Source: a virus. From it: 28,943 nt of DNA. A program made the translations under genes and the position numbers. The stretch covers positions 1-28,943 of IMG/VR virus record IMGVR_UViG_3300025889_013162; one strand, given 5' to 3'. This document shows, in pieces, positions 1,641 through 20,694 of this stretch (its first letter is position 1; each line of letters begins with the position of its first letter). The notes under the pieces are model-generated. The model searched no databases, had not been told where the DNA came from, and was given only the letters and a program-made list of their open reading frames with translations.

Positions 1641-1672
1641 CCATAAACTAAGTATAGGATTATGAGGGCTTT

Positions 1673-2439
1673 ATGAACAAAAAAGAAGTGTAAAAAATAA
1701 AAAACCTAGTCCCTACCCTACGAAAGGAAAAACAATCAAACTAGCCATAATACCAGTTAAAAACGAGGGTAAAGCTCCCATAGCCTTATCAAATAAATTA
1801 AATAGTATGGGGATAAAGGTTTTATTTGTTGATGACCATAGTAACGAGGAAAACTATGAGATTTTAAAGAATATTGATAGCGCAGAAACAGTTTCTAATG
1901 TTTTTGATAGGGGTAAGGGGTCAGCGTTGAAATTTGGGTATATCTATTCCTTAATTAAGTACAATCTAAAGCCTAACGACAAAATTGTTATCATAGATGG
2001 GGATGGACAAATAGACCCGAAAGAGTTAGATACATTTTTTAGAATAATGGAATTATATGACGCGCACGCGGTTATCGGGAATAAAAGGCATTTATTTTCG
2101 ACTACCATGTACGGGACAGTACGTCGCATAGTTAGTAAAACCTATAATGCTATAAACAGGTTACTATTTGGTTTTGATTATCGTGATACCCAGTGCGGTA
2201 TAAAAGTTTTTAAAAAGAAAGTACTCGACGACATTATCAGTAAAGTAAATGTGAAAAGATACGCTTTTGATTTAGAATTAATTGTTGCATTAAGAGCAAA
2301 TTCTTACAGAATAGCAGACGCACCCGTAACAATACGGACACAACAGAACAAGGGGTCTGTGTCCGTGACAACAATATTTCAAACTTTTGTTGACACAATG
2401 AAAATTTACGGTAATATGAAGAAGGGTAGATACTTATGA
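1673..2439 (+). CDS. GT2 polyprenyl-phosphate sugar transferase (DPM1/GtrB-like), out of frame near its start
   Basis: The conserved domain reads in one frame from about 1684 to TGA 2437-2439. It has LAIIPVKNEG (nucleotide-binding start), FVDDHSNEEN, DRGKGSALK, the catalytic IDGDGQ and DTQCGIKVF. These are hallmarks of the dolichol-P-mannose/bactoprenol-glucose synthase group, which charges a lipid carrier with one sugar. The first ATG of this frame is 1807, too late because it would remove the essential first strand. ATG 1673, with GAGGG upstream, reads MNKKEV and stops, but one extra A in the A6 run (1679-1684) joins it to the domain. The gene is therefore frameshifted, slippage-expressed or mis-sequenced. 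It lacks the C-terminal membrane helices of GtrB. It would supply the lipid-linked sugar used by the GT-C enzyme at 13420. Confidence 0.75.
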
Positions 2440-3836
2440 GCAAAACAATATTTGCAGTCCCGCCTATAAAAAATAACACTGGTTACGCGCAAGCGACTCA
2501 AAACCGGCAAGCCCAATATTTCAAAGACGACACTTTTATATATCCAGTAGTACCCGCTTATTTTGCTTCAATGCTCATGGCAGAGCAAGGGCAAGAGTTT
2601 TTATGGTTAGATGGGGTTGCTGAGAAATTAACCGAAAAAGAGTTTGCCAAGGTTATTGTTGATATGAAGCCGGATTACATTGTGTTAGAGGCTAATACAA
2701 TGGTGGTTGATAGGTATATTCAGATCGTTAATACATTAAAAGAGTCTATTTCTGATATAAAAATAATATTTACAGGTGAGCATTATACCGCTATGCCTGA
2801 AGATGTAGAGAGTCGGTGCAATGCGGATCATTATATAAAAGGCGGTAAGTGGTACAACGAAGCATTTAAGATTGTGACAGGTAAAGATTGGGTTGGGGAT
2901 TTACCAATAATTAATAGAGATATAACTAGGTGGTGGTTGTATGCCTATAAAAACGGTAATTTTAAATACACCCCTGCAACATATACTATGGCGGCGCAAG
3001 ATTGCTGGTATAGACCTAAACAAGCTTGTACATTCTGCACGTGGGTACATTATCATCCAGATAATAAGATAACAGAAGTGGAGCTTTTTCTTTTAGAGGT
3101 TGAAAGTATGATTAATTTCGGATTCAAAGAGTTTTTCGATGACTCTGGGACTTTTCCAGTCGGTAAATGGTTAAAAGAGTTTTGCGAAAAGATGATAAGT
3201 AGAGGGTATAACGAACATATCGTTTGGGGTTGCAATATGAGGTTTGGCGCTTTACAGCCTGGGGAACTTAAACTTATGCGCGAGGCTGGCTGTCGGTTTA
3301 TCTTATGGGGTTTTGAGAGTTCTAACCAAAGGACTTTAGATAAATTAAGCAAGGGTTATAAGGTTAAAGATATGCTTACAGATTTAGATAATTCAAGCTC
3401 TGTAGGGATATGGAATCATCTAACGGTTATGTACGGTTACCCTTGGGAGTCTTTAGAGGCTGAAAAAGCTACTTGTTCGGAAGTAAAAAGATTACTGTTA
3501 GAGGATAAAGCTGCAAGCGCTCAGGCTACAGTATTCATGCCTTACCCTGGTACTAAAGCGTATAAAGAGTGTGAGGAGCAAGGTATTATTCTGCATAAAA
3601 ACTGGGAGCAATGGGATATGGCTCATCCAGTTATCAAATTAAAGTACCCATTTGAAGAAGTTATTAAACTTCAAAAGGAAACATACGACGTATCTTATAA
3701 GCCTAAATTTATATGGAACAAAATAAAAAAGATTAGAAATATAGATGATTTTAGATTTTATTTTAGATTATCCAAAAAGGTTGTAGATCGATTTGGGACA
3801 ATACTAAACAAACCAGGAGCAGGAATTAATGGATAG
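2436..3836 (+). CDS. cobalamin-type radical SAM enzyme with unusual Cys spacing
   Basis: A 466-residue protein whose ATG overlaps the previous stop (ATGA). Residues about 35-150 form a B12-binding-like Rossmann domain (YPVVPAYFASML, KPDYIVLEANT, IIFTGEHYTAMPE, equivalent to the GGxHxTxxPEE turn). The radical SAM core starts near 184, but the cluster Cys are C190, C198 and C201 (CX7CX2C) instead of CX3CX2C. Core features follow: FDDSGTF, WGCNMRFG, FILWGFESSNQRTLDKLSKG and the YPWES turn. Such proteins methylate unactivated carbon or rearrange carbon skeletons, often in surface-glycan or natural-product clusters. The substrate is unknown; in this cluster a sugar, lipid or CMP-phosphonate is plausible. 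Confidence 0.8.
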   Translation: MSKTIFAVPPIKNNTGYAQATQNRQAQYFKDDTFIYPVVPAYFASMLMAEQGQEFLWLDGVAEKLTEKEFAKVIVDMKPDYIVLEANTMVVDRYIQIVNTLKESISDIKIIFTGEHYTAMPEDVESRCNADHYIKGGKWYNEAFKIVTGKDWVGDLPIINRDITRWWLYAYKNGNFKYTPATYTMAAQDCWYRPKQACTFCTWVHYHPDNKITEVELFLLEVESMINFGFKEFFDDSGTFPVGKWLKEFCEKMISRGYNEHIVWGCNMRFGALQPGELKLMREAGCRFILWGFESSNQRTLDKLSKGYKVKDMLTDLDNSSSVGIWNHLTVMYGYPWESLEAEKATCSEVKRLLLEDKAASAQATVFMPYPGTKAYKECEEQGIILHKNWEQWDMAHPVIKLKYPFEEVIKLQKETYDVSYKPKFIWNKIKKIRNIDDFRFYFRLSKKVVDRFGTILNKPGAGING

Positions 3837-4566
3837 TCCTCTTATTTCTTGTATTATCCCCATCGTCCGCGGCGATATTCACATTCAAAACTGCATAAAA
3901 GCCATAAAGGCGTCAACATACAAAAATGTTGAAATTATCGTTGTGGACGAAGGGTTAGAGAGGAGCGCTCAAAGGAATATAGGAATTAAGAAAGCTAAAG
4001 GGGAATATTTAATATGGATTGACTCTGATATGCGGTTACACCCAAACCTTTTAGAAGATTGCGTAAAAAAAATAAAAGGTCATACAGCCGTATATATACC
4101 CGAAACGATTGTAACTGAAGGCTGGTTCGGTTATTTAAGAAACTGGGAGAGGCAATTTTATAATGGGTCTTTGGTTGATGTAGTACGTTTTATAAGAACT
4201 AAAGACTGTCCCTTATTTGATGAAGATTTACATGGCGTTGAGGATAGTTCATGGGAACGGGAAATTTTAAAAAATAATCCGCAAGCAAATTTTTCAGTTT
4301 CTGATTTTCCTTTTTACCATCACGATAAGGTAGGGCTTATTAAATACCTAAAGAAAAAGGCTTATTATGCCCAATGCCTTAACAAATATAGTCGGAAAAA
4401 TCCAGGCGACAGATTGCTTACGTTTAAGTATCGTTGTTGGGAAGTATTCACAGAAAATGGAAAATGGAAAAGGTTAATTTCCCGCCCGCATTTAGCGGTA
4501 GGTGTATTTTTATTATTATTCGCAAGAGGTATGATATATATATATGCAAGAAAAAGATACGTCTAA
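3829..4566 (+). CDS. GT2 family glycosyltransferase with C-terminal membrane anchor
   Basis: This is a 245-residue product starting 8 bases inside the previous gene. The GT-A fold is visible: SCIIPIVRGD, VEIIVVDEG, RSAQRNIGIKKAKGEYLIW, and the metal-binding DSD at residues 65-67. HGVEDSSWERE near residue 140 is the usual acceptor-side acidic motif. Residues about 219-238 (LAVGVFLLLFARGMIYIYA) form one membrane helix with positive flanks, so the enzyme probably works at the inner face of the membrane on a lipid-linked glycan. Donor and acceptor cannot be read from sequence. Confidence 0.85.
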   Translation: MDSPLISCIIPIVRGDIHIQNCIKAIKASTYKNVEIIVVDEGLERSAQRNIGIKKAKGEYLIWIDSDMRLHPNLLEDCVKKIKGHTAVYIPETIVTEGWFGYLRNWERQFYNGSLVDVVRFIRTKDCPLFDEDLHGVEDSSWEREILKNNPQANFSVSDFPFYHHDKVGLIKYLKKKAYYAQCLNKYSRKNPGDRLLTFKYRCWEVFTENGKWKRLISRPHLAVGVFLLLFARGMIYIYARKRYV

Positions 4567-5590
4567 AAAGATACTTATATTAACACCCTTCTATCCACCC
4601 AATACAGGCGGTGCAGAAACATTCTGCCACGACCTTGTCCAGACAATAAGCGAATACCATAATGTCGATGTATTAACATTCCAGCCTTTTGAGGGTGGTT
4701 TCGTGGATTACCAGGAGTATAATTGCGGTAAAGGGTCAATAAATATAAGGCGCATAAAATGGGGCATAAAACACAAGACCGCTTGGCAAGGTATTAGTTT
4801 TAGAAACTTTTTTTCAGTATTTCCAAAGATGTTTTTCCACGCTAGGTCGCTTATCAAAACCAACCGATACGACGTAGTTCACGCTCAAGGGCTGCTATCC
4901 GCAATGGTAGCAGTCCTTCTGCATAAAAAGGTATTTATTACCTTGCTGGCATTATATGATTTCCCTAGTCAAAAATGGTATGTAAATAAATTAACGCAGT
5001 TTGTTTTAAATAGATGTGAGAAGATATTTGTTGAAGGGGAGAACGGGGCTAACGATATAAGACAGTTTAATGTTGATAAGAAGGTAAGAATGTTTAATCA
5101 TTGGACGGATCATAAAATATTTTGTCTTCCTGATAAAAGGACAGATAAAACTACTAATATTTTATTTGTAGGTCGTCCTATTAAAATTAAAGGTATGCAC
5201 ATTATAAAAGGCGCTGAAAAAATTATTAATAATAATAAATATAGGTTTGAATATGTTACAAAAGTTAAATTCCAAAAACTTCCGGAGATTTATAAAAGGA
5301 ATCATATTTGTTGTGTTCCTAGTCTCTATGATGAAGGGTATTCAAGAGTGGTTATGGAAGCAAGCTCCTGTGGTTGCGCCATTATTACGTCAGATCGTGG
5401 AAGCCTTCCAGAACAAGTGAGAAAGTTCGGTATATATATTAAAGCGACACCTAGGAATTTCTCTGATGTAATAAAAGGCGTAGACCATAAAAAATATGGA
5501 GAACGTGCTTACAAATATTCAAGAAAGTATTTTTCAAAAGATAACGCGAAGGTGTTTTTAGATGCTTACGAGAATGGAAATATTAGATAA
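4544..5590 (+). CDS. GT4 family (GT-B fold) glycosyltransferase
   Basis: This is a 348-residue product starting 23 bases inside the preceding gene. The N-terminal domain opens with KKILILTPFYPPNTGGAE, the classic GT4 acceptor-domain start, and includes YDVVHAQGLLS. The C-terminal donor domain has ILFVGRPIKIKGMHIIKGAE, then PSLYDEGYSRVVMEASSCG, the EX7E-type nucleotide-sugar site, and RGSLPEQV. It is a retaining glycosyltransferase of the RfaB/WcaI type using a nucleotide sugar in the cytosol. The full expected domain set is present in a compact length. The sugar is unknown. Confidence 0.88.
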   Translation: MQEKDTSKKILILTPFYPPNTGGAETFCHDLVQTISEYHNVDVLTFQPFEGGFVDYQEYNCGKGSINIRRIKWGIKHKTAWQGISFRNFFSVFPKMFFHARSLIKTNRYDVVHAQGLLSAMVAVLLHKKVFITLLALYDFPSQKWYVNKLTQFVLNRCEKIFVEGENGANDIRQFNVDKKVRMFNHWTDHKIFCLPDKRTDKTTNILFVGRPIKIKGMHIIKGAEKIINNNKYRFEYVTKVKFQKLPEIYKRNHICCVPSLYDEGYSRVVMEASSCGCAIITSDRGSLPEQVRKFGIYIKATPRNFSDVIKGVDHKKYGERAYKYSRKYFSKDNAKVFLDAYENGNIR

Positions 5591-6050
5591 GGTATTAAAA
5601 AAAAGTAAATTTCATGGGTTAGAAATAGGAACATTACGAGGGGACTTTGTTTGTTATTTCTTAGAAAAATATAAAGAGTGCCGTATAACGTCAATCGATA
5701 AAGACCCTTTTAAATTAGACTCTCATATTGACGTAGAGTATAGGACAGAAAAATATAAGGATAGGTATATTTTAATTATTGAGGACTCTCTTACCGCTTG
5801 GGAGAAAATAATAGGTGTTAAGTATGACTTTGTTTTTATAGACGGAGACCACAGCTACAGCATGACAATGGCAGATATAAAAAACTATAAGAATAATGTA
5901 ATAAAAGGCGGTATTCTTTGCGGACATAATTATGATAAAGATGTTAATCCTAACAATGCCCATCCTGGGGTTAAACGTGCGGTTGATGAAGTTTTTGGGA
6001 ATAGGGTTACAATTAATAGTGACGACGCATTTTGGTGGGTGAAACTATGA
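5562..6050 (+). CDS. class I SAM-dependent methyltransferase (Methyltransf_24-like)
   Basis: A 162-residue protein. ATG 5562 (AAGGTG 8-12 bases upstream) and ATG 5574 are both possible; the former is used. Motif I is GLEIGTLRGDF, the acidic end of strand 2 is ITSIDKDP, and FVFIDGDHSY is the metal/catalytic loop seen in Methyltransf_24 and CmcI-like enzymes, followed by KGGILCGHNY. It overlaps the upstream glycosyltransferase by 29 bases and the downstream radical SAM gene by ATGA. The likely role is O-methylation of a sugar or other small hydroxyl compound. The substrate is inferred only from its neighbours. Confidence 0.8.
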   Translation: MLTRMEILDKVLKKSKFHGLEIGTLRGDFVCYFLEKYKECRITSIDKDPFKLDSHIDVEYRTEKYKDRYILIIEDSLTAWEKIIGVKYDFVFIDGDHSYSMTMADIKNYKNNVIKGGILCGHNYDKDVNPNNAHPGVKRAVDEVFGNRVTINSDDAFWWVKL

Positions 6051-7525
6051 TAACAAATAAAATATCAAGACAACCGACAAAGACTACAGGTAAATGGGAC
6101 GAATCAAAATGTGATAAGGGAAGAACTTGGGCGCCAGGTACTAAGTTCGCATTTTGTGTGGCTGAGGATATTAACCCTGGCGCTGGTTATGTAATGGCAC
6201 AGCTAAGGGCGCAAGGTTATCAAGTGGAACTATTCTTCGACCCCAAGCAAGGGAATAGAGGGTATTCCCAGAATAAGATTATAGATAAGTTATTTAATAT
6301 CCAAGACTGGCTAATTAAAGAAATGAAAGAATATAAGCCGGACGTTATTTGTTTCTCTGTACTATCTGCAACTTATCAATGGGGGGTTAAATTTGCGGAA
6401 CGTGTTAAAAATGAAGTGGGTGGACATATTATCTTTGGGGGTACGTTGCCTACTTTGGTACCCGAAGAAGTTAGCAAAAATTGGTTTATCGATGAAGTAG
6501 TACAAGGGGATGGAGTTAGACATTTTGGCGGTAAGTTTGAACCGGATGATTTATTTCCTGTTAGAGAGGATTTCTTCGATGAATTGCCACCCGAACACCG
6601 CAAGACGCAACTTTTTATGACCTCTTATGGATGTCCTTATAACTGTACTTTCTGCGGTAACCAACAATTAAGGGAAGTCGGTCAATACGTTAAGCTTAAA
6701 AGGTCGGTAGATTGTTGTATTAAAGAACTTAAAATGATGAAAGAGCGCTGGGGTATGAAGAATGTCTTATTCGTTGATGACATATTAACTCTAGATAAAG
6801 CATGGTTAATGGAATTTCTACCTAGATATAAAAAAGAGATTGATTGTGATTTTGCCTGTTTTGGACACGTTAATTGTTTAGATGAGGAAGAAATCGAAGC
6901 TATGGCAAAGGCTAACTGCAAAACTATTTGGTTGGGAATACAATCAGGTTGTCCTGACCATCGTAAAAATATGCTAGACCGTCCTGAAACTAACGAACAG
7001 ATTATAAGGGTGTCAAAGTGGATTAAGAAATACGGTATTAAGTTAATGGTAGATCATATATGCGGGTTGCCTGGGGAGTCGCACAGAACGCATGAATTAT
7101 CTTACCAATTATATAAAACTATTGACGCGGATGTTATTAATGTTTATGAGTGTTTATATTTTCCCAAGGCTAAGATTAATGATTACGCTTTAGAGTGCGG
7201 GTATCTTGTTCCGGAAGATATTGAAAAGATAAACACAGGGCGTCATGTTGTTTATCAGCAAGGGAACAAGGGGCATGAATTTTTTGATAAGTACCAAAAG
7301 ATATTAATAGCTTTACCTTTAAAGAATATGATTTTCGAATGTTTACCACCAAACCTTATTAAATTAATAGTCCATCTAAAGGCTGGGCGTGGTTATATAG
7401 CCAATGCCATGATACAGAACGAGCTTTTCTTTACGTGGCGGGCTATTTTAAAACGTTTAGGGTTAATGAAACATAGAGCCAATGTTAAAAACTTTTCTTT
7501 CAAACACAATTGTAAAACGGTATAA
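6047..7525 (+). CDS. cobalamin-binding radical SAM enzyme (BchE/Fom3-like architecture)
   Basis: This is a 492-residue product from ATG 6047, which forms ATGA with the preceding stop; an in-frame TTG at 6032 is less likely. The B12-binding domain is at about 33-165 (KFAFCVAEDINPGAGYV, KPDVICFSV, GGTLPTLVPEE, VVQGDG). The canonical radical SAM cluster is SYGCPYNCTFCGN (C196, C200, C203), followed by FVDDI, LGIQSGC and HICGLPGES. The C-terminal extension has basic and hydrophobic segments, perhaps for membrane contact. Enzymes of this build include P- and C-methylases such as Fom3, which methylates the CMP ester of 2-hydroxyethylphosphonate. That role would suit this cluster but is not proven by sequence. 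Confidence 0.85.
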   Translation: MITNKISRQPTKTTGKWDESKCDKGRTWAPGTKFAFCVAEDINPGAGYVMAQLRAQGYQVELFFDPKQGNRGYSQNKIIDKLFNIQDWLIKEMKEYKPDVICFSVLSATYQWGVKFAERVKNEVGGHIIFGGTLPTLVPEEVSKNWFIDEVVQGDGVRHFGGKFEPDDLFPVREDFFDELPPEHRKTQLFMTSYGCPYNCTFCGNQQLREVGQYVKLKRSVDCCIKELKMMKERWGMKNVLFVDDILTLDKAWLMEFLPRYKKEIDCDFACFGHVNCLDEEEIEAMAKANCKTIWLGIQSGCPDHRKNMLDRPETNEQIIRVSKWIKKYGIKLMVDHICGLPGESHRTHELSYQLYKTIDADVINVYECLYFPKAKINDYALECGYLVPEDIEKINTGRHVVYQQGNKGHEFFDKYQKILIALPLKNMIFECLPPNLIKLIVHLKAGRGYIANAMIQNELFFTWRAILKRLGLMKHRANVKNFSFKHNCKTV

Positions 7526-8114
7526 ATCCTTCGGGCATTTTGGAGTGTTCCGGTTCCGACTTCTTTATTTTGTATATAAGATATGGGGTGGTTTACATAT
7601 CCGTCATAAGGAATGGGACTGGGTACTTGAATACCTTCCAAAATTACATAACGATAAACAAGTAATCGAGGTTCTTGACGTAGGATGTTCAAGGAATTTG
7701 TTTGTTTATGAGGTTGAGCATAGAGGGTATATTGTTGATGGCATAGACCTTGAACCTTTCCAAGAAAAAATACCTAACGGAATAAATATATTAACAAAAG
7801 TAACTGATGTAACAAAAATAGATTATATAGAATATTATGACTTTGTAACTTGTATATCTGTATTGGAGCATATCGGGAATGATGGCAAAGGTGATTTGGT
7901 AGAACAGAAAAAGGCAATTAATAATATGTGTGCGTCATTGAAAAAAGGCGGGCGTTTATTATTAACTATACCTACAAAAGAATTTGCACAAGGTCATATA
8001 TGGCATGGATTTAGTGTCGGACAGATTGAAGATATGATTAAAGCTGGTTTCTGGGTAAAGAGTTCCGAAGAAAGACTCGGACAACATTGTATTTGCATTG
8101 AAAGGGATATGTGA
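7482..8114 (+). CDS. class I SAM-dependent methyltransferase (Methyltransf_11-like)
   Basis: This is a 210-residue product starting 44 bases inside the previous gene. Motif I is VLDVGCSRN, strand 2 ends in VDGIDLEP, the motif IV region is TCISVLEHIG, and post-motif LKKGGRLLLTIPT is typical of small-molecule methyltransferases. The motif I glycine pattern (GCSRN rather than GCGxG) is slightly unusual but seen in the family. Residues 1-45 are basic and aromatic and may contact membrane or acceptor. It ends in ATGTGA, where the next gene starts at GTG. The substrate is unknown. Confidence 0.8.
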   Translation: MLKTFLSNTIVKRYKSFGHFGVFRFRLLYFVYKIWGGLHIRHKEWDWVLEYLPKLHNDKQVIEVLDVGCSRNLFVYEVEHRGYIVDGIDLEPFQEKIPNGINILTKVTDVTKIDYIEYYDFVTCISVLEHIGNDGKGDLVEQKKAINNMCASLKKGGRLLLTIPTKEFAQGHIWHGFSVGQIEDMIKAGFWVKSSEERLGQHCICIERDM

Positions 8115-8866
8115 AAGAATTTTCAAATGACATATACGAAAATATAAAACTGCCAGCGCTGTTGTTCTGTATAAAGCATAATATAACAGGTAATATGGTT
8201 ACCGTATTTAATCATATTATAACATTAACATTCGGGTGTTATTTCTTTTCTATCGGGACATATTACGGTTGGATAATTGGTTTATGTGTGATGGTTTTAA
8301 ATGGATTTTTAGATTATTTAGATGGAGATATTGCTAAGAAAACGGGTAAAGTTGGAGAATTAGGGGTATGGTTAGATTCTGGATTTGACGTTATTGTTCA
8401 GAACGCGGTGATGGGGGCTATTGCTATCGGGTGTTATAACATGGGGATTCCTATTTTATGGATTATTATTTTCTTTATAGCAAACGCTGCTAATAATTTT
8501 ATAGGGTTTAATTATAACGCAAGGTTCGGTTTTGACTCTTATAGAGGGAATGTGTTATTTAGAAAATATATGGATAAAAAAATGGGTTTACATAATATTT
8601 TTCTAAAAAATCTAATAGACCCAACTGACAGTCATGTAGCATTATTTTTCTACACATTGAGGTACTTAATTGCTATAGGGTGCCTGTTTAATATAATGCC
8701 TATTACTTTTAAGGTTATGACTATAATATCAACTTTTAAGTGGGTTATTATGTATTGTCTTTATGCTATGTATTTAAACGGGAGTAATAACTTTCACGTG
8801 TTAAAAGCTCTTGCTGTGTTAGATGATAAAAGAGCAGAATTTTACAACATAAGGGGTCAGAAATGA
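8111..8866 (+). CDS. CDP-alcohol phosphatidyltransferase
   Basis: This is a 251-residue integral membrane protein from GTG 8111 with AAAGGGA upstream. The family signature D-x2-D-G-x2-A-R-x8-G-x3-D-x3-D is fully spaced: D68, D71, G72, A75, K76 (Lys for the usual Arg), G85, D89 and D93. About six hydrophobic helices surround it. The family transfers a phospho-alcohol from a CDP- or CMP-activated donor to a hydroxyl, releasing CMP. Sitting directly before the phosphonate genes, it is the best candidate to move the phosphonate from its CMP ester onto a lipid or glycan. The alternative is an ordinary phospholipid head-group enzyme. The Arg-to-Lys change is conservative. Confidence 0.88.
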   Translation: MKEFSNDIYENIKLPALLFCIKHNITGNMVTVFNHIITLTFGCYFFSIGTYYGWIIGLCVMVLNGFLDYLDGDIAKKTGKVGELGVWLDSGFDVIVQNAVMGAIAIGCYNMGIPILWIIIFFIANAANNFIGFNYNARFGFDSYRGNVLFRKYMDKKMGLHNIFLKNLIDPTDSHVALFFYTLRYLIAIGCLFNIMPITFKVMTIISTFKWVIMYCLYAMYLNGSNNFHVLKALAVLDDKRAEFYNIRGQK

Positions 8867-9009
8867 AAAAAAGAAAAACAAAGGATGTTTATAGGAGTGC
8901 TATAACTGGAAGGTTTGTAAAAAAGAAATTCGCCGAGAAGAATAATGGAACAACCATAAAAGAAAAAGTAAGGTTTGCTACAAAGTATAAGGTGATTAAT
9001 GAGAAATAG
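8863..9009 (+). CDS. 48-residue basic protein with RSAxTGRFV motif
   Basis: ATG 8863 overlaps the phosphatidyltransferase stop (ATGA), and the gene ends inside the PEP mutase start. The product is strongly basic and contains RSAITGRFVKKKFAEKNNGT and TTIKE. I know this pattern (RSxxTGRFVxxxxAxxxPxTT) from many short uncharacterised phage and bacterial proteins, without a proven role. It may be a filler gene of the phage rather than part of the pathway. Its position between two coupled enzyme genes keeps translation continuous. Confidence 0.6.
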   Translation: MKKRKTKDVYRSAITGRFVKKKFAEKNNGTTIKEKVRFATKYKVINEK

Positions 9010-9757
9010 TGTAATAGTTTCGGCTGGTGATGCGATAACGGCTAAGTTAGTTGAACAGGCAGGGTTTGATGGAATATGGGTTTCAGGTTTTGAAGCTTCG
9101 GCTAGACTAGGTCTTGCCGACAATGGAAGCATAACCATGACTGAAATGTTAAGGGTGTGCGAGCCTATTGTTAAAGCAGTTAATATCCCTGTCTGGGTTG
9201 ATACCGACACCGGATATAATAATTTTCAGCGAACGGTTATGGAGTTTGAGGATATAGGAGTCGCAGGCGTATCAATTGAAGATAACCTTCCAGAGTTAAA
9301 GACCAATTCTTTATGGGGTGAAACTGTCCCGCTTATGAAAGCGGAAGATTTTGCAAATAAAATAAATGTTAGAAAAAAAAATATTAAAGTTATAGCAAGG
9401 ACAGAAGCATTAATAAGGGGACACGGACAGAAAGAAGCGTCCAAGCGATTAAACCTATATTGCGATAATGGCGCGGATATAGTCCTGGTTCATGCGCGTA
9501 AATGGGAAGATGTTTATATTTGGGATTCGTCTGTACCGCTTGCTATAGTTCCGACTAAGTTCCCTGAAATTACGAACAGAAGATTACATGATATGGGGTA
9601 TAGCATGGTTATATGGGCGAACCAAACAGAACGTGTAAAAATAAAGTCAGTTAGGGACGCTTTAAAGTCTCTAAAAGAAAATGATTGTGCAAAGTATATT
9701 GAGAATAATTTATCGGCAACGCTTGATGAAATGAAAGGATTAACACCTGATGTATGA
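8999..9757 (+). CDS. pepM: phosphoenolpyruvate mutase
   Basis: This is a 252-residue TIM barrel of the isocitrate lyase/PEP mutase superfamily. It converts PEP to phosphonopyruvate, the committed step that forms the C-P bond. Visible active-site parts: GFDGIWVSG, RLGLAD (D41), WVDTDTGY (D68, D70 binding Mg), IEDN (E94, D95), KTNSL (K101, N103, S104), IARTEA (R134), VHAR (H165), PTKFPE and MVIWAN. The usual EDKx5NS mutase signature is EDNx6NS here: the first Lys is Asn and the loop is one residue longer, but the loop Lys and Asn next to NS are kept. The N end is short by about 10-15 residues. The following decarboxylase genes make the mutase assignment far stronger than lyase or hydrolase. Confidence 0.9.
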   Translation: MRNSVIVSAGDAITAKLVEQAGFDGIWVSGFEASARLGLADNGSITMTEMLRVCEPIVKAVNIPVWVDTDTGYNNFQRTVMEFEDIGVAGVSIEDNLPELKTNSLWGETVPLMKAEDFANKINVRKKNIKVIARTEALIRGHGQKEASKRLNLYCDNGADIVLVHARKWEDVYIWDSSVPLAIVPTKFPEITNRRLHDMGYSMVIWANQTERVKIKSVRDALKSLKENDCAKYIENNLSATLDEMKGLTPDV

Positions 9758-10073
9758 TTTATCTGTCGGAGTCCCTTTTACTGGGTGTGAGAAATACATA
9801 AGAGGTAAGAATATTACAGCTACAAGAGAAGATGAAGCTATAGCGATTGCTACGGGCGCATGGTTAGCGGGTAAAGAACCTTTTGTATATATGCAGAACA
9901 GCGGTTTTGGCAACTGCGTTGATGTTATTACTTCATTAATAAAGCCTTATGGGATAAAAATAAACATTCATGTGGACAATAGAAAGACGCCTGAACATCA
10001 CGCTTTAATGGGTAAAATATTTATAAAACTATCGGAGTTATTGGAATATGAACCGCGCAGAAGCAATAATTAA
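9750..10073 (+). CDS. ppd: phosphonopyruvate decarboxylase, PYR-domain subunit
   Basis: A 107-residue protein starting 8 bases inside pepM. It is the N-terminal pyrimidine-binding half of a thiamine-diphosphate decarboxylase: TATREDEAIAIATGAWLAG carries the cofactor-activating Glu (E27), followed by VYMQNSGFGNCVDVITSL and the end HALMGK. In most phosphonate clusters both halves form one protein of about 380 residues; here the PP half is a separate, overlapping gene. This resembles ComD/ComE-type sulfopyruvate decarboxylase, but the adjacent PEP mutase favours phosphonopyruvate. It lacks about 50 residues compared with a usual PYR subunit, mostly after MG. Confidence 0.85.
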   Translation: MYDLSVGVPFTGCEKYIRGKNITATREDEAIAIATGAWLAGKEPFVYMQNSGFGNCVDVITSLIKPYGIKINIHVDNRKTPEHHALMGKIFIKLSELLEYEPRRSNN

Positions 10074-10530
10074 AATACTTAAAGAAATTAAAGAAGACGA
10101 CATTATAATTTCATCAACTGGATATATTTCCAGAGAATTATTCAAGCAGAAAGACCGTAAGCTTAATTTTTATATGATGGGTTCTATGGGGTGCGCTGTC
10201 CCGATAGGTTTGGGTTTATCGTTTCACGTGAAACAAAATGTTATTGTGGTTACAGGCGACGGATCGGCTCTTATGGGGCTAGGGTCTTTAGTGACTTGTG
10301 CAAAAGAGGCGCCTAAAAATTTAAGGGTTATTATATTAGATAATAAGGTGCACGAAAGTACAGGGGGTCAAGAAACGTCTTCTATGTACATTGATTTTAA
10401 AGATATATGGGAGAGGGTAGAGGTTTGGAATATAAAAACAGATGATACTATACCGCCAAGAATAAAACTATCTCCGTACATAATACAAAAGAGGTTTAAA
10501 AATGCAGTCTACGCTATTAATAACAAGTAG
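10048..10530 (+). CDS. ppd: phosphonopyruvate decarboxylase, PP-domain subunit
   Basis: This is a 160-residue product overlapping the PYR subunit by 26 bases. It holds STGYISREL, FYMMGSMGCAVPIGLGLSF and the thiamine-diphosphate motif GDG (70-72) ... N99 in GDGSALMGLGSL and ILDNKVHESTGGQ, which match Ppd family signatures. With its partner it should convert phosphonopyruvate irreversibly to phosphonoacetaldehyde, pulling the unfavourable mutase reaction forward. The C-terminal part is shorter than in one-piece enzymes. The paired split genes argue for a heteromeric enzyme rather than a broken gene, since both termini are clean and overlapping. Confidence 0.88.
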   Translation: MNRAEAIIKILKEIKEDDIIISSTGYISRELFKQKDRKLNFYMMGSMGCAVPIGLGLSFHVKQNVIVVTGDGSALMGLGSLVTCAKEAPKNLRVIILDNKVHESTGGQETSSMYIDFKDIWERVEVWNIKTDDTIPPRIKLSPYIIQKRFKNAVYAINNK

Positions 10531-11191
10531 TACGACATTTAAAATTATAAGGAACCGCATAAAATATGATGATATTCTTATCATAAAAGAGCCGCCGAAA
10601 AAAGAAATAACAAAAAAGTACAAGGGTAAAATAATAGCTGTAGGCGGGGGGTCTGTAATAGATTCGGCTAAAATGATGGGAAGGGATAATCCTATATACG
10701 CTATACCGACCACAGCTAGCGGTTCGGCTTGTACAAGTTGGGCTGTTGTGTGGATACCGGACGATAAGGTTTCGATTAATTGCGCTGTTCCTATTCTATG
10801 TGAAGATTATAAGACTTTACCTATATCATTATCTAAAAAGACTTCAGAATCAACATATTATGATTGTAAGGCTCATTTAATAGATTCTCGTATGAGTACA
10901 AAATCTAATAGTTTGAGTTTATCTTACTGCAATATAGCTGACGAATTTCTAAGAAGATACGAAATGCACAAATGTGTTAACGACCTTATAGAAGCTGGTA
11001 ATTATGCTGGACGTGCTATACAAATAACAGGAACTGGGCTTTTTCATGCTTTAAGTTATATCATAACTCTTGAATACGGACTCGATCATGGGCAAGCTTT
11101 AAAAGCTGTCATGTACTTTGATAGTAAGTACGACTGGAATAAGATAATAAGTAAAGCTAAACTTTTTGAAAAATTCGGGGGTCATTTATGA
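10502..11191 (+). CDS. compact iron-type alcohol dehydrogenase, likely phosphonoacetaldehyde reductase
   Basis: This is a 229-residue product overlapping the decarboxylase gene by 29 bases. Group III Fe-ADH parts are GKIIAVGGGSVIDSAKMM (NAD(P) site), IPTTASGSACTSWAV, and the four metal ligands D121, H125, H182 and H196 with family spacing (D-x3-H, H-x13-H in FHALSY ... LDHGQALKA). Typical members have 370-400 residues, so both the N-terminal nucleotide domain and the C-terminal bundle are trimmed. FomC/PhpC-like members reduce phosphonoacetaldehyde to 2-hydroxyethylphosphonate, and the gene order supports that. Activity at this size is unproven. Confidence 0.82.
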   Translation: MQSTLLITSSTTFKIIRNRIKYDDILIIKEPPKKEITKKYKGKIIAVGGGSVIDSAKMMGRDNPIYAIPTTASGSACTSWAVVWIPDDKVSINCAVPILCEDYKTLPISLSKKTSESTYYDCKAHLIDSRMSTKSNSLSLSYCNIADEFLRRYEMHKCVNDLIEAGNYAGRAIQITGTGLFHALSYIITLEYGLDHGQALKAVMYFDSKYDWNKIISKAKLFEKFGGHL

Positions 11192-11592
11192 AGAAGAAAA
11201 TAGGTTATTGTGCGTTAACAGCAGACCCGTTACATTATGGGCATATTATATATCTTGAGAAGTGCAAGGAAAACTGCGGACAGTTGTATGTCGGTGTAAT
11301 GTCTGACGAGGCTGTTATTTCATATAAAGGGAATAAGCCGTTACAGTCTGTTTATGAGAGAGAACGAGTTATTAGAGCATTAAAGATGGTTAGCGGAACT
11401 TTTATACAGAATACTTTCGAGTTTCCATATTTTATAACTGAAATGGCAGAAAGAAAAGATTATCATATATTCGATTCAACAGAGCACTCTCGTTCAGGGG
11501 CTACGATGTGTTTCGATAGAACGGATAATATATCAAGTACAATTATAAGAAAACATAATGAGAATACTTATACTAGCGAACTCAAGATATAA
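11188..11592 (+). CDS. HxGH cytidylyltransferase, likely acting on 2-hydroxyethylphosphonate
   Basis: This is a 134-residue product from ATG 11188, overlapping the reductase stop by ATGA. Signatures of the TagD/Fom1-N-terminal group are present: HYGH (residues 16-19), VGVMSDEAVISYKG, ERERVIRALKMV and ISSTIIR (115-121). Such enzymes form CMP esters or CDP-alcohols from CTP. In known phosphonate clusters a homologous domain is fused to or adjacent to PEP mutase and activates the phosphonate with CMP. The immediate upstream order (mutase, decarboxylase, reductase) makes 2-hydroxyethylphosphonate the likely substrate. Glycerol-3-phosphate is the main alternative. Confidence 0.85.
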   Translation: MKKKIGYCALTADPLHYGHIIYLEKCKENCGQLYVGVMSDEAVISYKGNKPLQSVYERERVIRALKMVSGTFIQNTFEFPYFITEMAERKDYHIFDSTEHSRSGATMCFDRTDNISSTIIRKHNENTYTSELKI

Positions 11593-12652
11593 GGGCGGGG
11601 CAAGCGGTGGAGATAAGATTTACGAGTCATTCGTAAAATATTGGGCTATAAAGTGCGATGTGAAAACATTAGAGCATTTAGATTATAAGCCGTTCACTCT
11701 TTGTTATATCCATAGAATATTAGAAGGTATTAGGTGTGCTTTATTCGATAATAATAAATACGAATTTGTTTATTCTTCGAGTGATTTTCTGCCTGATGTT
11801 ATCCCCGCGTTAATTTATAAAATGAAAGGTAATAGATGGGTAGCTGGGTTTTTTTTAAATGCGTTCAAGGAAAATAAGATTCATTATTTTACTCAGAAAT
11901 TTGTAAAGTCAGCCATTAACAAATGGGCTGATGTTGTTATTTTAACAAACCCGACTATGTACAATATATTTAAAAAGAAGAATAAGACATGGATTAATGG
12001 TGGTATAGATACTGATTTAGCGTATGTAAAAAACAGTAATAAGAAATATGACGCTGTTTTCTGCGGTAGAATACACCCGACAAAAGGTATAAGTATTTTA
12101 ATTAAGATTTGGCATTATGTAAGGCACGTTAGACCTGACGCAAAGTTAGCAATAATAGGTGACGGAGACTTAGGTATTGAGTATGTTAATAAATTAATAC
12201 GCAGAATGTTCGGGTTTAACGACTCTGGTATAACTTTGTTGGGGTATATGGGCGATGAAAGGTATGATATTTATAGACAGTCAAAGATTGTATTATACCC
12301 AACGCCTATGAAGTATGACCATTTCAGCATGGCTCCTGTTGAGGCTATGGCTTGCGGGTGTCCATTAGTTGCTTTTAAGACGTTAACAACAATGTTTTAC
12401 CACGATCATTTAGATATGGAAAAATGCTATTTAGCTGACAATGAAATTACTTTTGCCGAAGCTATTGTTACTCTTATTGATGGGGACTGGAAATTGAATG
12501 TTTTAGAAACGGCAGAATGGGCAAAGCAGTTTGATTATAAACATCAATCTTTAGACGTATTAGATAATATAAGGGAGATACTTGTAGATGAAAATATTGA
12601 TAACGGGACACCGGGGAATGGTGGGGACGGAACTGTTAAGTGTTTCGTCTGA
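11558..12652 (+). CDS. GT4-like glycosyltransferase
   Basis: This is a 364-residue product starting 35 bases inside the cytidylyltransferase gene. The start MRILILANSRYKGGASGGD fits the GT-B acceptor domain; the donor domain has AVFCGRIHPTKGISILI, AKLAIIGDGDLG, ITLLGYMGD, and FSMAPVEAMACGCPLVAF with the nucleotide-sugar Glu. The last 20 or so residues (starting DENIDNGTPGNGG) are the overlap with the next gene and look unstructured, perhaps a run-on after loss of an earlier stop. The sugar specificity is unknown. Confidence 0.85.
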   Translation: MRILILANSRYKGGASGGDKIYESFVKYWAIKCDVKTLEHLDYKPFTLCYIHRILEGIRCALFDNNKYEFVYSSSDFLPDVIPALIYKMKGNRWVAGFFLNAFKENKIHYFTQKFVKSAINKWADVVILTNPTMYNIFKKKNKTWINGGIDTDLAYVKNSNKKYDAVFCGRIHPTKGISILIKIWHYVRHVRPDAKLAIIGDGDLGIEYVNKLIRRMFGFNDSGITLLGYMGDERYDIYRQSKIVLYPTPMKYDHFSMAPVEAMACGCPLVAFKTLTTMFYHDHLDMEKCYLADNEITFAEAIVTLIDGDWKLNVLETAEWAKQFDYKHQSLDVLDNIREILVDENIDNGTPGNGGDGTVKCFV

Positions 12653-13439
12653 CCATGAGTTTATTACTTTACCAAAGTGGCAGTTTAATATAGGGAATTT
12701 AAGTCAAGTTTTAAATGTAAAAAAAGATTTTGATTGTATAGTTCATCTAGCTGCGGAAACAGACCATGAGTATTGCGACGCTAACCCTACTCAATGTTAT
12801 TTTATTAATTCGATAGCGACTGGGAATTTAGCGCGGTTAGCGGATGATCGAGGGGTACACATGGTTTATTTAAGTACGGCTTCAATATTTGATGGGAAAA
12901 CTTGTAAACCTTATACAAATAAGAGGTTCAGCGCAAGACCTGACCCTATAAACCATTATAACGCTTCAAAATGGTACGGCGAACATTTCGTACAACAGTA
13001 TAAATCAAATTATATTCTTCGTGCTGGGTGGATGTTCGGCGGCGGTAAATATATCGATAAGAAATTTATTCAAAAGATGTTTATTAAATTGTCAAGAGGG
13101 GATAAAGAAATTAAGGTCTGTGATGATTGCATAGGAAGTCCTACATATAGCGTTGACCTTGTTAAATGTATTTTGAAAGCTGTTGAGAAAAAAATAGCTC
13201 CTGGTATATATCATGCGGTTAATCCATGCGGTGATGGTGTTAGCCGATATGAAGTTGCGTGTAAAATGATTAAGTATTTAGGTTCTGACTGTAAGATAAT
13301 ACCTTGTAAGATTGATGATTTAAAAGATGAGTTTCCGTGTAAAAGAACTAATTATGAAGTTTTAGAGACAAATTTCCCAGAGCTTAGGAGTTGGGATTTA
13401 GCGCTAAAGGATTACATTAATGATAAATATAGACATTAA
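12588..13439 (+). CDS. NAD(P)-dependent sugar reductase (RmlD-like extended SDR)
   Basis: This is a 283-residue product overlapping the glycosyltransferase by 65 bases. The Rossmann motif is GHRGMVG (G7, G10, G13), then HLAAETDHEYCD, YLSTASIFDG and the catalytic Y125-N-A-S-K129. RmlD family members reduce dTDP-4-keto-rhamnose, and relatives reduce or epimerise other nucleotide sugars. No RmlA, B or C genes are in the window, so the enzyme either draws on a host intermediate or has another nucleotide-sugar substrate. Several Cys residues at the C end (SDCKIIPCK, EFPCK) are unusual. Confidence 0.82.
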   Translation: MKILITGHRGMVGTELLSVSSDHEFITLPKWQFNIGNLSQVLNVKKDFDCIVHLAAETDHEYCDANPTQCYFINSIATGNLARLADDRGVHMVYLSTASIFDGKTCKPYTNKRFSARPDPINHYNASKWYGEHFVQQYKSNYILRAGWMFGGGKYIDKKFIQKMFIKLSRGDKEIKVCDDCIGSPTYSVDLVKCILKAVEKKIAPGIYHAVNPCGDGVSRYEVACKMIKYLGSDCKIIPCKIDDLKDEFPCKRTNYEVLETNFPELRSWDLALKDYINDKYRH

Positions 13440-14892
13440 TATTATTTTAATAGCCGTAGCGTTCGCCTGGCATTATTCATTAATGTGCGGGTATATATCA
13501 GACGACCATGCAGCCGTTGCTAGAAGAAAAGATATAATCCCCGATACTGAGAAGATAGACAGGGGTGAGTCTTTCTGGGTTAAGTTGTTTAATGATGGTA
13601 TTATTTTATATTATCAAAGCAGATTATTCTGGGCTTTAGGGTTAACAAAAATTCCTTTCTTTTGGCATTTGTTCAGTTTATGTCTTCATGTAGCCAACAC
13701 TTATTTGTTATATTTATTCTTAGGTCAATATTTCGGTTATGAGACGGCTTTATATGCTTGCGCTTTCTGGGCGGTTAATCCTATGTTGAACCAGAATGTT
13801 GTTTGGATTAGCGGCAGACCTTATGCGATAGCTTTATTATTAACTCTCTTAGCTTGTATATCATATCAACAGCCGTTAATTTTTATACCATTATACTTAT
13901 TAGCGGTCATAACAAATATATCTATATTTTTTATGCCTGTCATATTATTGGCTATGTACCCGCATGATTTAATGCCTAAAATATATGTTTTAAGTATGTT
14001 TGTGTTTGCTGTTCCTTTTGTTTTATGGAAGTTTAAAATGAGGTTTACTAATGGGCTTGTTATTGACAGGGAAAATTTTCATATAAAATGGCGTAAGTGC
14101 AACACTTTTGTAAGGGTTGCATTGTATTATATATACTGTTTGTTCTTCCCGAATAAAATGGGGTGGTACCATCAAGCGGGGTTCCGGTATAATGAGAAAT
14201 GGGAAAAGTTTAATTACATAACATTAACCAGTTATATAATTGTAGGGGCTATGATGTATTATTCCTTATTGCCCGCGTTGTGGTTCCTGCTTGGTCTTTT
14301 CCCTTTGAGTAATGTTCTAGCGACGAATTCGTTTGTCCAGGACAGGTACACTTATTTTCCAAGTATAGGAATTGCGCTTATGGTATCCCCCTTTTTATCG
14401 GCTTACCCAGAATTATTTTTTTGTGTAATGACGTTTTATATAACAAGAACATATATGTACTCGCGTAATATGAAAAATGACGAAATGATGTATAGAGAAA
14501 ATTTCCGAAATCATCCTAAGAGCGATTATGCTATTAATAATTTATCGTATTTCCTTATTCAGCAACAACGATATGACGAAGCTAGGGTATTCATTGAGCA
14601 AGGTATCGCTATTAACCGGATGAATAAAATGCTTTGGTATAATTTAGGTATTACGTGGGCGGCAACTGGACATTTTAATTCAGATGAGGGTAAGTTCAGG
14701 TTTTTAAGGGCTTTAGAGTGTTGGAAAATGGCTTTACAAATTGAGCCTAGATGGTCAAAGCCGGCAAATGATCTTAATAAGCTTGTTAAGATTTTAGTGT
14801 CTAAGGGGGTAATGAAAGTGTCAGATGATAAAGAGAGCGGGGAGAAAATTACGCTCCCCAATATAAATGGATTAAAAGAGGGTTTAAAATGA
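13420..14892 (+). CDS. GT-C membrane glycosyltransferase with C-terminal TPRs (TMTC-like)
   Basis: This is a 490-residue product overlapping the reductase by 20 bases. About nine or ten membrane helices lie in residues 1-360. The first outer loop contains SDDHAAV, the acidic pair typical of GT-C catalytic loops, and the family markers VWISGRPY and QDRYTYFPSIGIAL match TMTC-type O-mannosyltransferases. Residues about 365-465 hold TPR-like helices (YAINNLSYFLIQQQRYDEA, LWYNLGITWAATGHF, LECWKMALQIEP). GT-C enzymes use polyprenyl-phosphate sugars outside the membrane, which the DPM1-like gene at 1673 would make. The target could be a protein or the host surface glycan, comparable to GtrC in phage serotype conversion. 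Confidence 0.78.
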   Translation: MINIDINIILIAVAFAWHYSLMCGYISDDHAAVARRKDIIPDTEKIDRGESFWVKLFNDGIILYYQSRLFWALGLTKIPFFWHLFSLCLHVANTYLLYLFLGQYFGYETALYACAFWAVNPMLNQNVVWISGRPYAIALLLTLLACISYQQPLIFIPLYLLAVITNISIFFMPVILLAMYPHDLMPKIYVLSMFVFAVPFVLWKFKMRFTNGLVIDRENFHIKWRKCNTFVRVALYYIYCLFFPNKMGWYHQAGFRYNEKWEKFNYITLTSYIIVGAMMYYSLLPALWFLLGLFPLSNVLATNSFVQDRYTYFPSIGIALMVSPFLSAYPELFFCVMTFYITRTYMYSRNMKNDEMMYRENFRNHPKSDYAINNLSYFLIQQQRYDEARVFIEQGIAINRMNKMLWYNLGITWAATGHFNSDEGKFRFLRALECWKMALQIEPRWSKPANDLNKLVKILVSKGVMKVSDDKESGEKITLPNINGLKEGLK

Positions 14893-15899: not shown

Positions 15900-16346
15900 A
15901 TGAAAGAAAATACTACACAGACAGAAACAGAATTTGAACCTACAGCGGATATGATTGTATTTGCGGGGTATTGGGCTAAAAACTTGGGTAACATACTGGC
16001 TACTTGTGAAGAATCAGGAATACCTAGAAGCCGGTATTATAAAGAATGGCTGGAAGATGATAGGTTTGAAATATGGTTAAATCAGTTCGTGAAACAGTGC
16101 GTTTTAAAAAGAAGTGGTTTATGGTATGCAACACTTGAGAAGTATGCCAGAGCTGGTTCATATAAACACCTTGAGAAGCTTATGCTTATAGCAAAGGAAT
16201 TTGAGGCTACTCCGGATGTTCTTATCCAAAATATTACAATACCTCAAAAAACAGTAATTTTCAGGGATATAGCGCAGGATGGAAACAATCGAAGTACAGA
16301 TGCCCTTGAAAGTACAGGAAGTGATAGGGGTACCGAGCCGTTATAA
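15900..16346 (+). CDS. terS: terminase small subunit
   Basis: This is a 148-residue product placed directly before, and overlapping by 68 bases, the large terminase gene. Residues 15-60 (ADMIVFAGYWAKNLGNILATCEESGIPRSRYYKEW) form a helix-turn-helix-like DNA-recognition region (split here at GN/IL), then a helical oligomerisation part and a polar tail. It should bind the packaging site and regulate the motor. ATG 15900 has no Shine-Dalgarno sequence because the terminator T-run lies directly upstream. Met18 is an alternative start but also lacks one. Confidence 0.75.
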   Translation: MKENTTQTETEFEPTADMIVFAGYWAKNLGNILATCEESGIPRSRYYKEWLEDDRFEIWLNQFVKQCVLKRSGLWYATLEKYARAGSYKHLEKLMLIAKEFEATPDVLIQNITIPQKTVIFRDIAQDGNNRSTDALESTGSDRGTEPL

Positions 16347-17469
16347 AGTCCTTGAAGGGGGGCGCGGTGGTGGTAAATCCTATTCTTTCGCAGACGCTCT
16401 TATCACTAAAGCAGCGTATGAAAAGACTCGTGTCTTATGCACAAGAGAGACACAGCATAGCATTAAGGATTCAGTCCATAGGTTACTATCTGATAGGATA
16501 GAATATTTAGGATTCAGTCCTTTTTTTGACATAAAGAGAGATTCGATTGTTAGCCGAGTAGGAAGCGATTTCTTATTTAAGGGATTGCTTAGAAATATCA
16601 ATGAGATTAAGTCTACCGAAGGGGTAGACGTTTGTTGGGTTGAGGAAGCCGAGAAGGTAAGTCAGAATAGTTGGGACGTTCTCATACCAACCATAAGAAA
16701 GGCTAATAGCGAGATATGGGTATCGTTTAACCCAGAAGATGAGCATAGCCCAGTATACCAGAAGTTTATAGTAAACCCCCCACCTGATTGCAGACACGCG
16801 CACGTAACATGGAGAGACAACCCGTTATTCCCTGATGTTTTAAGAAAAGAAATGGAGTACGACAAAAGGGTTGATTATGATAAATATTTACACGTATGGG
16901 AAGGTGAGGTTAAGAAGTATTCGGATGCTCTTATTTTCAAGAATAAGGTATTTGTTGAGGAGTTTGAAACCCCAGAGGGAACACAGTTATATTTTGGGGC
17001 TGATTGGGGTTATAGCGTAGACCCTACGACGTTGCAGAGGATGTGGATAAAAGACCACACACTTTACCTAGATCATGAGTTTTATGCTCATGGGGTGGAG
17101 ATTAACGAGTTAGAAGCTGGGTTTGATAAAGTACCAGGTAGTCGCAAATGGAAGATAACCGCTGATAGTGCAAGACCTGAGACAATTAGTCACATGGCTA
17201 GGTTAGGGTTTAATATTGTAGGGGCTGAGAAGGGGAAAGGGTCGGTTGAAGATGGGATCGAGTTTTTACGCAGTTTTGAGCGTATTGTTATCCATCCAAG
17301 ATGTAAGGGCGCAATTGATAACTTTATGAATTATAGATGGAAAAAAGACAGAGTGACCGAGGAAATATTACCAATACCTTTAGACGCTTCCAATCATACT
17401 CCAGACGCTTGTCGGTATGCACTTGAAGATTATATTAAATCAAAGGAATTTAGAATATCATGGGTATAA
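16279..17469 (+). CDS. terL: terminase large subunit (PBSX/SPP1 type)
   Basis: This is a 396-residue product. The ATPase domain has the Walker A motif GGRGGGKS (residues 28-35), CTRETQHSIKDS, and Walker B VDVCWVEEAEKV with the catalytic Glu. The nuclease domain carries acidic metal ligands in YFGADWGYSVDPT and ITADSARPE, and an Asp near the end (SNHTPDACRYALEDYI). It is the DNA-packaging motor and headful-type endonuclease that docks on the portal. The start is kept at ATG 16279; ATG at 16300 (MPLKVQEV) would also leave the domains intact. Confidence 0.93.
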   Translation: METIEVQMPLKVQEVIGVPSRYKVLEGGRGGGKSYSFADALITKAAYEKTRVLCTRETQHSIKDSVHRLLSDRIEYLGFSPFFDIKRDSIVSRVGSDFLFKGLLRNINEIKSTEGVDVCWVEEAEKVSQNSWDVLIPTIRKANSEIWVSFNPEDEHSPVYQKFIVNPPPDCRHAHVTWRDNPLFPDVLRKEMEYDKRVDYDKYLHVWEGEVKKYSDALIFKNKVFVEEFETPEGTQLYFGADWGYSVDPTTLQRMWIKDHTLYLDHEFYAHGVEINELEAGFDKVPGSRKWKITADSARPETISHMARLGFNIVGAEKGKGSVEDGIEFLRSFERIVIHPRCKGAIDNFMNYRWKKDRVTEEILPIPLDASNHTPDACRYALEDYIKSKEFRISWV

Positions 17470-19490: not shown

Positions 19491-19492
19491 AA

Positions 19493-19849: not shown

Positions 19850-19878
19850 AAATATAAGTCCATCTTATAGGGGGTAAT

Positions 19879-20676: not shown

Positions 20677-20694
20677 AAAATGGAGAACTAAAAA

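Follow-up and report, generated by a model that had tools for sequence, protein, structure and literature searches.

The early steps of fosfomycin biosynthesis lead to the cytidine monophosphate (CMP) ester of 2-hydroxyethylphosphonate (HEP). They involve Fom1, in which a cytidylyltransferase (CyTase) is joined to a phosphoenolpyruvate (PEP) mutase (PepM), the phosphonopyruvate decarboxylase (Ppd) Fom2, and the iron-type alcohol dehydrogenase (Fe-ADH) FomC, and the CyTase domain of Fom1 produces CMP-HEP (Rice et al., PMC6697681). PepM and nucleotidyl activation are likewise found beside glycan genes in bacterial phosphonyl-tailoring and phosphonoglycan clusters, which are thought to decorate cell surfaces (PMC6697681; PMC8931226). 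Here, we analyzed a linear viral fragment of 28,943 nucleotides (nt), the entire IMG/VR record IMGVR_UViG_3300025889_013162 (hereafter the window), in which phage genes flank genes for the same set of enzymes. To our knowledge, the making of carbon-phosphorus (C-P) bonds, the rare and tough bonds that define phosphonates, has so far been treated as a cellular trait. Phages carry phosphorus-uptake and phosphonate-degradation genes, and they alter host surfaces. We consider it probable that the window holds a tailed-phage locus for glycan decoration into which a phosphonate module is built; the module would make CMP-HEP for transfer to a lipid or glycan.

A first-pass annotation had described five open reading frames (ORFs) at 8999-11592 on the plus strand. 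All five were present, in pathway order, with successive overlaps of 8, 26, 29, and 4 nt. They correspond to the enzymes and predicted intermediates of the fosfomycin pathway up to CMP-HEP, and profile searches matched all of the expected families (PEP mutase, Ppd, Fe-ADH, and CTP_transf_like). As had also been claimed, no aminotransferase family was matched among the cassette proteins. The phosphonate gene block is thereby confirmed. The five-gene unit is real, but the functional unit spans much more, from 1807 to 14892, and contains a CDP-alcohol phosphotransferase that had gone unmentioned. The genes of the module and this phosphotransferase are as follows.

8111-8866, plus strand: CDP-alcohol phosphotransferase, integral membrane by family (PF01066, E = 2.6e-13; DYLDGDIAK..GVWLDSGFD)
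8999-9757, plus strand: PepM-like phosphoenolpyruvate mutase (PF13714, E = 1.7e-43; PDB 1m1b, E = 1.4e-43; AF2 model)
9750-10073, plus strand: PpdA, alpha (N-terminal) subunit of phosphonopyruvate decarboxylase (TIGR03297, E = 1.1e-16; REDEA region)
10048-10530, plus strand: PpdB, beta subunit, binding thiamine pyrophosphate (TPP) (PF02775, E = 1.6e-14; TIGR03297, E = 2.1e-40; TIGR03846, E = 1.1e-41; GDG..LDN)
10502-11191, plus strand: miniaturized Fe-ADH of 229 amino acids (aa), predicted phosphonoacetaldehyde reductase (PF00465, E = 1e-8; TIGR03405, E = 1.2e-13)
11188-11592, plus strand: HxGH CyTase, predicted HEP:CTP cytidylyltransferase (PF01467, E = 2.4e-11; 5x3d, E = 2.8e-7)

The window PepM passed the PF13714 gathering score (149.4 versus 31.5 bits), and its best NCBIfam model was the PEP mutase TIGR02320, more than 50 bits above phosphonopyruvate hydrolase. 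In the alignment, it had equivalents of all residues that we take to form the active site of the mussel enzyme (W44, S46, D58, D85, D87, E114, K120, N122, R159, and H190), and those of W44, S46, D58, D85, D87, K120, R159, and H190 were invariant across 28 homologues. The earlier statement that the active site is visible thus stands for these residues but not for the loop, which reads EDN-LPELKT-NS and not EDK-X5-NS, although the K-x-N-S loop residues are kept. The AF2 model (pLDDT 94) had PEP mutases as its best fold matches (5unc/1pym, TM 0.93). The protein is best filed in a PepM-like sister subfamily rather than as a strict PepM member. An ordinary prpB/isocitrate-lyase homologue was ruled out by profiles, loop, fold, and neighbors. 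Such genes did appear in the phage collection: two Acinetobacter matches (H3 and H4) were annotated prpB next to prpC and acnA. Acinetobacter phage MD-2021a (CAKLQH020000009.1, L006), which carries lctD, prpB, prpC, and acnA, looks like a mislabelled bacterial chromosome.

The two Ppd halves scored 60.8 and 138.9 bits against TIGR03297, a single-chain model with a cut-off of 312.5 bits that neither half reached. Nevertheless, the TPP-binding VTGDGSALM...LDN of PpdB and the REDEA region of PpdA with the TPP-activating Glu were kept across relatives. Two related loci had unusual PpdB frames: one (L013:11141-12375) carried, at its N-terminus, an extension resembling an HNH endonuclease, as though a homing endonuclease lay between PpdA and PpdB, and the other (L014, from 11167) was apparently fused to a large glycosyltransferase-like protein. 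The Fe-ADH passed the PF00465 gathering score (35.4 versus 31.3 bits), kept its four metal ligands (D121, H125, H182, and H196), and also matched TIGR03405, the model of the phosphonate-cluster Fe-ADH PsrA. Its AF2 model (pLDDT 94) showed a compact Fe-ADH fold, with a TM score by query of 0.74 to 1vhd. Phage Fe-ADHs shrink stepwise from about 355 aa to 229 aa and then to 169 or 158 aa, the shortest being encoded in L012 (11451-11924), and DxxxQ replaces DxxxH in several other viral copies.

The CyTase scored 44.4 bits against PF01467 (threshold, 21 bits) and contained both Fom1-type motifs, HxGH (HYGH) and RTxxISST (RTDNISSTII). Its top PDB match was ethanolamine-phosphate cytidylyltransferase, followed by the Fom1 CyTase domain (5x3d). 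The CDP-alcohol phosphotransferase scored 51 bits against PF01066 (threshold, 22 bits). Comparison of the family motif D(x2)DG(x2)AR(x8)G(x3)D(x3)D with DYLDGDIAKKTGKVGELGVWLDSGFD showed agreement at all positions except R, which is here K, and the catalytic Asp residues were conserved in three phage relatives. We link this protein to the CyTase because the CyTase gene directly follows the phosphotransferase gene in a related phage (L010), and it is a candidate for the transfer of the CMP-activated phosphonate.

The same block occurs in other phage genomes. Two IMG/VR contigs from two other samples (L008 and L009), which share 99.985% identity over 13.6 kb, carry it. L008 keeps the gene order of the window at 35-75% protein identity and continues into the large terminase (TerL), portal, and protease genes; it differs in that the short MT24 methyltransferase was unmatched and a DegT-family ORF precedes PepM. 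L009 additionally encodes tape measure, Dit, endolysin, and a Cas4-type exonuclease. The block is rearranged or partial in two further relatives: in L010, the cassette and the TerL, portal, and capsid genes lie on opposite strands, and in L011, PepM-PpdA-PpdB-Fe-ADH is followed by portal, protease, and capsid. Codon-position divergence between the window and its relatives followed the order 2 < 1 < 3 in every cassette gene tested, as in TerL and portal, a purifying-type pattern suggesting that the cassette proteins are under purifying selection. In a related phage (L044, 201-6317), the phosphotransferase, a GT4 glycosyltransferase, RmlD, and the TPR protein are kept, while a DegT-like gene and a methyltransferase-like ORF replace the PepM block. 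The PepM block may thus be a cartridge that can be swapped in and out of a glycan locus in phages, which is what surface variation would lead one to expect.

The phosphonate genes are embedded in a same-strand run (1807-14892) of nearly all overlapping genes. Upstream of a 132-nt gap, the order is GT2, B12-radical-SAM, GT2, GT4, methyltransferase, B12-radical-SAM, methyltransferase, and CDP-alcohol phosphotransferase; downstream of it, PepM, PpdA, PpdB, Fe-ADH, CyTase, GT4, RmlD, and the multipass TPR protein. The remaining genes of the run are listed here with the phage genes on either side.

830-1171, plus strand: DUF1064, Holliday-junction-resolvase-like phage gene, left flank (PF06356, E = 5e-11; phrog_190, E = 2.1e-18)
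1807-2439, plus strand: GT2 polyprenyl-phosphate-sugar-synthase-like glycosyltransferase, start codon uncertain (PF00535, E = 1.1e-6; NF058614, E = 1e-11, and AglJ-like, E = 3e-11, both below cut-off)
2436-3836, plus strand: B12-binding radical SAM protein 1 (PF04055, PF02310; HpnJ-like, below cut-off)
3829-4566, plus strand: GT2 glycosyltransferase (PF00535, E = 7.7e-15)
4544-5590, plus strand: GT4 glycosyltransferase (PF13439, E = 3e-11)
5562-6050, plus strand: methyltransferase (PF13578, E = 2.5e-14)
6032-7525, plus strand: B12-binding radical SAM protein 2 (PF04055, E = 1.5e-18)
7482-8114, plus strand: methyltransferase (PF13489, E = 7.8e-11)
11558-12652, plus strand: GT4 glycosyltransferase (PF13692, E = 3.4e-20)
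12588-13439, plus strand: RmlD-like dTDP-4-dehydrorhamnose reductase (PF04321, E = 4e-50; PDB 1vl0, E = 4.6e-32)
13420-14892, plus strand: multipass membrane protein with C-terminal TPRs (profile matches to TPR only; sequence)
15900-16346, plus strand: small terminase, right flank (placed before TerL; homologues precede TerL in L010 and L040)
16279-17469, plus strand: TerL, right flank (PF04466, E = 3.4e-42; phrog_3717, E = 2.1e-67)
17460-21930, plus strand: portal, head maturation protease, and major capsid protein (PF04860, E = 1.3e-57; phrog_2662, phrog_617, phrog_10)

Profile searches also identified connector and tail proteins downstream of the cassette, and the matches on both sides agree with the earlier description of the flanks as phage genes including terminase and tail genes. 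The closest named relatives of the window TerL are those of Nitratiruptor phages (52%), too distant to point to a host. The closest NCBIfam models of radical SAM protein 2 were P-methyltransferases (NF038361, E = 4.1e-22; PhpK TIGR04479, E = 7.1e-22), both far below cut-off. The YISDDH motif of the multipass TPR protein was kept in four phage relatives, and from this motif we infer that the protein may be a GT-C-like glycan transferase. The first GT2 frame extends upstream of its first ATG (window 1666-1807; TIKLAIIPVKNEGKAPIAL...) without ATG, GTG, or TTG, and may therefore use an unusual start codon or contain a frameshift near 1690.

An alignment-based scan identified PepM relatives in 32 viral IMG/VR records, while an earlier viral scan with a single PepM protein as the query gave no match. 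Ppd-like genes were close by in nearly all of these records and an Fe-ADH-like gene in most. TerL (phrog_2) was matched in 14 of the 32, twice weakly, and portal in 5; for records with neither match, the viral assignment is that of IMG/VR, and bacterial sequences may be among them. The PepM tree had two groups, one with the canonical EDKX5NS signature, whose members are often joined to a CyTase, and the EDN/QDD/EDV group of the window. The canonical signature was found in viral contigs L016 to L039, and PepM of L016 passed the TIGR02320 cut-off with 387.4 bits. The clade of the window comprised seven viral sequences and one Elusimicrobiota metagenome-assembled genome (support, 100/99). That genome (L120), the sole cellular member found, has a CyTase-PepM fusion together with PpdA, PpdB, and Fe-ADH, and the cluster that contains them reads like one for surface glycans; a scan of genomes from 84,980 species, limited by its search patterns, returned no further cellular member. 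PF01066 was found near PepM in only 4 of the 32 records, all in the clade of the window, which rules it out as a partner in every viral PepM locus, and the CDP-glycerol-type transferase PF04464 was similarly ruled out as a general partner (2 of 32 records).

Elsewhere, PepM-like matches were few among 50,697 phage records, the credible one being Vibrio phage Va2. PHROGs v4 held no family matching the window PepM, CDP-alcohol transferase, or Fe-ADH, and at E <= 0.001 no viral structure in BFVD resembled PepM. Two fecal "Bacteriophage sp." records, MT836947.1 (L003) and MT837901.1 (L004), carried CyTase-PepM and Ppd with no phage gene seen among their ORFs and are probably bacterial in origin. 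In cellular loci of Planctomycete, Nitrospira, and Chlamydiota origin (L121, L122, L125, L128, and L132), EDN..CS replaces EDK..NS, in some cases beside Ppd-like genes; these may form an uncharacterized PepM sister group. Ten in-frame stop codons within the terminase match (32234-33778) in the record of L019 (G012) suggest an intron or an inserted element.

These data show directly which genes are present and in what order, their phage context and their recurrence, the purifying-type divergence of their codons, and the key catalytic residues. The enzymatic steps, the acceptor, and the benefit are all inferred from them. PepM would convert PEP to phosphonopyruvate, PpdA/PpdB would decarboxylate this to phosphonoacetaldehyde, the short Fe-ADH would reduce the latter to HEP, and the CyTase would form CMP-HEP. 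HEP and CMP-HEP are the likely products, and the most economical prediction, because the PepM model best fits PEP mutases and the CyTase matches the Fom1 domain. The membrane CDP-alcohol phosphotransferase would then place HEP onto a lipid or onto a lipid-linked glycan assembled by the neighboring glycosyltransferases, RmlD, methyltransferases, radical-SAM enzymes, and membrane/TPR protein. Transfer to a lipid or glycan is suggested because membrane and lipid-linked glycan enzymes stand on both sides of the module. The likely benefit would be an altered surface of the infected host, leading to superinfection exclusion or receptor change, or a decorated virion.

Several observations weigh against this scheme. 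The window PepM scored below the TIGR02320 equivalog cut-off (172.7 versus 319.55 bits) and lacks the EDKX5NS signature (Rice 2019; Acker 2022), its loop (EDNLPELKTNS) having Asn in place of K116 and being one residue longer. E114 is replaced by Q in PepM of L008 and L010, no Ppd was detected in L010, and the window Fe-ADH has an atypical length (229 aa versus about 355 aa in the model), while that of L008 (11516-12022) has only 169 aa and an H-to-Q change in one ligand. Furthermore, L044 keeps the CDP-alcohol phosphotransferase without the PepM block, so that the phosphotransferase may use another donor. The divergence of the clade, including E114Q, would leave room for a changed product. Indeed, the shortened Fe-ADHs of relatives (158-169 aa), the lost ligand, the missing Ppd of L010, and the likeness of radical SAM protein 2 to P-methyltransferase models below cut-off would fit a phosphonate other than HEP, derived from phosphonoacetaldehyde or phosphonolactate or C- or P-methylated by the B12-radical-SAM pair. 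We regard this as unlikely, since the window Fe-ADH has all four metal ligands and a confident model, and the CyTase resembles the HEP-specific Fom1 domain. That the first enzyme is no mutase, but a divergent isocitrate-lyase-superfamily enzyme supplying a 2-oxoacid (sulfopyruvate-type) decarboxylase, appears improbable: the clade does have EDN/QDD/EDV in place of EDK, and PpdB also scores with the sulfopyruvate decarboxylase beta model TIGR03846 besides TIGR03297, but the lead of TIGR02320 over the hydrolase model, the PEP mutases topping both PDB and fold matches, the retained K-x-N-S residues, and the company of Ppd and/or Fe-ADH and mostly a CyTase across the clade argue for a mutase.

The target of the module could also differ. 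The locus adjoins structural genes and has the same direction as TerL and portal, and it may therefore be expressed late, which would suit decoration of the virion or of phage DNA instead of the host envelope. This is rather unlikely, given that the membrane phosphotransferase, the polyprenyl-phosphate-sugar-synthase-like GT2, and the multipass TPR protein indicate lipid-linked, envelope-facing assembly and that the L010 cassette is not co-directional with TerL and portal. Finally, only metagenomic contigs were available, the cassette has a slightly lower GC content than the structural genes of the window, and one related PepM (L015) is frameshifted, as might be seen if bacterial DNA had been misassembled onto a phage contig or if the cassette were a decaying passenger. 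This explanation is highly improbable and largely refuted: the arrangement is repeated in divergent relatives and in contigs from two other samples that are nearly identical to each other, the ORFs are intact with purifying-type codon divergence, and phage genes flank both sides. A chimera was ruled out by the same contigs together with the divergent syntenic relatives. A phage-encoded C-P pathway, as proposed by the first-pass annotation, thus remained the best reading, since independent samples yielded the block again, beside structural genes and within one phage family.

On balance, we favor the view that at least one tailed-phage family carries a complete de novo C-P pathway (EDN-type PepM, split Ppd, miniature Fe-ADH, and stand-alone CyTase) as an exchangeable cartridge of a glycan locus, coating the cell or virion with HEP, and that unrelated phages took up separate PepM lineages. 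The recurring related blocks suggest that some phages may make phosphonates to decorate cell or virus surfaces. Bacterial surface phosphonates have been proposed to guard against phages and grazers (Acker et al., PMC8931226); if our reading is true, phage-made decoration would invert this idea, since phosphonates could exclude competitors or cloak phages, and viruses would be an added source of environmental phosphonates. With such genes recurring in many virus records and in the isolated phage Va2, phage phosphonate synthesis can already be tested.

As in the fosfomycin pathway, the window has a CyTase matching the Fom1 domain and B12-radical-SAM proteins nearby. Unlike in that pathway, the CyTase is a separate gene, Ppd is split, Fe-ADH has about two-thirds of the usual length, and the context is one of glycan assembly; the radical-SAM proteins are identified here as B12-binding, and not as Fom3-like. 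Bacterial phosphonoglycan clusters are cellular, and their commonest partner is PntC (PF12804), acting on 2-aminoethylphosphonate, whereas the window is phage-borne, has no phosphonate aminotransferase, and encodes a PepM without EDKX5NS. The first-pass annotation knew of no described phage C-P pathway, and this held for the open-licence literature (subscription papers and most preprints were outside the scope), in which we found no paper on phage phosphonate synthesis; still, there are precedents. The nearest report is a note on Borg extrachromosomal elements, mobile and virus-like, which carry what is probably a fusion of PepM and cytidylyltransferase within a glycoconjugate region (PMC12660748), but Borgs are huge archaeal elements, whereas the window comes from a tailed phage and has all of PepM, Ppd, Fe-ADH, and CyTase. 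The other precedent is the isolated Vibrio phage Va2 (MW073017.1), for which a literature search returned no paper and in which a PEP mutase is annotated and a protein close by is Ppd-like (TIGR03297, E = 1.6e-44). It is a different phage type with a single-chain Ppd and another PepM lineage (EDK; 25-30% identity), and no Fe-ADH or CDP-alcohol transferase was seen in the stretch examined. Phage serotype-conversion and envelope-modifying loci, in which phage-borne glycosyltransferase genes alter the host surface, generally draw on host sugar donors, whereas the locus described here would build a new C-P donor from PEP.

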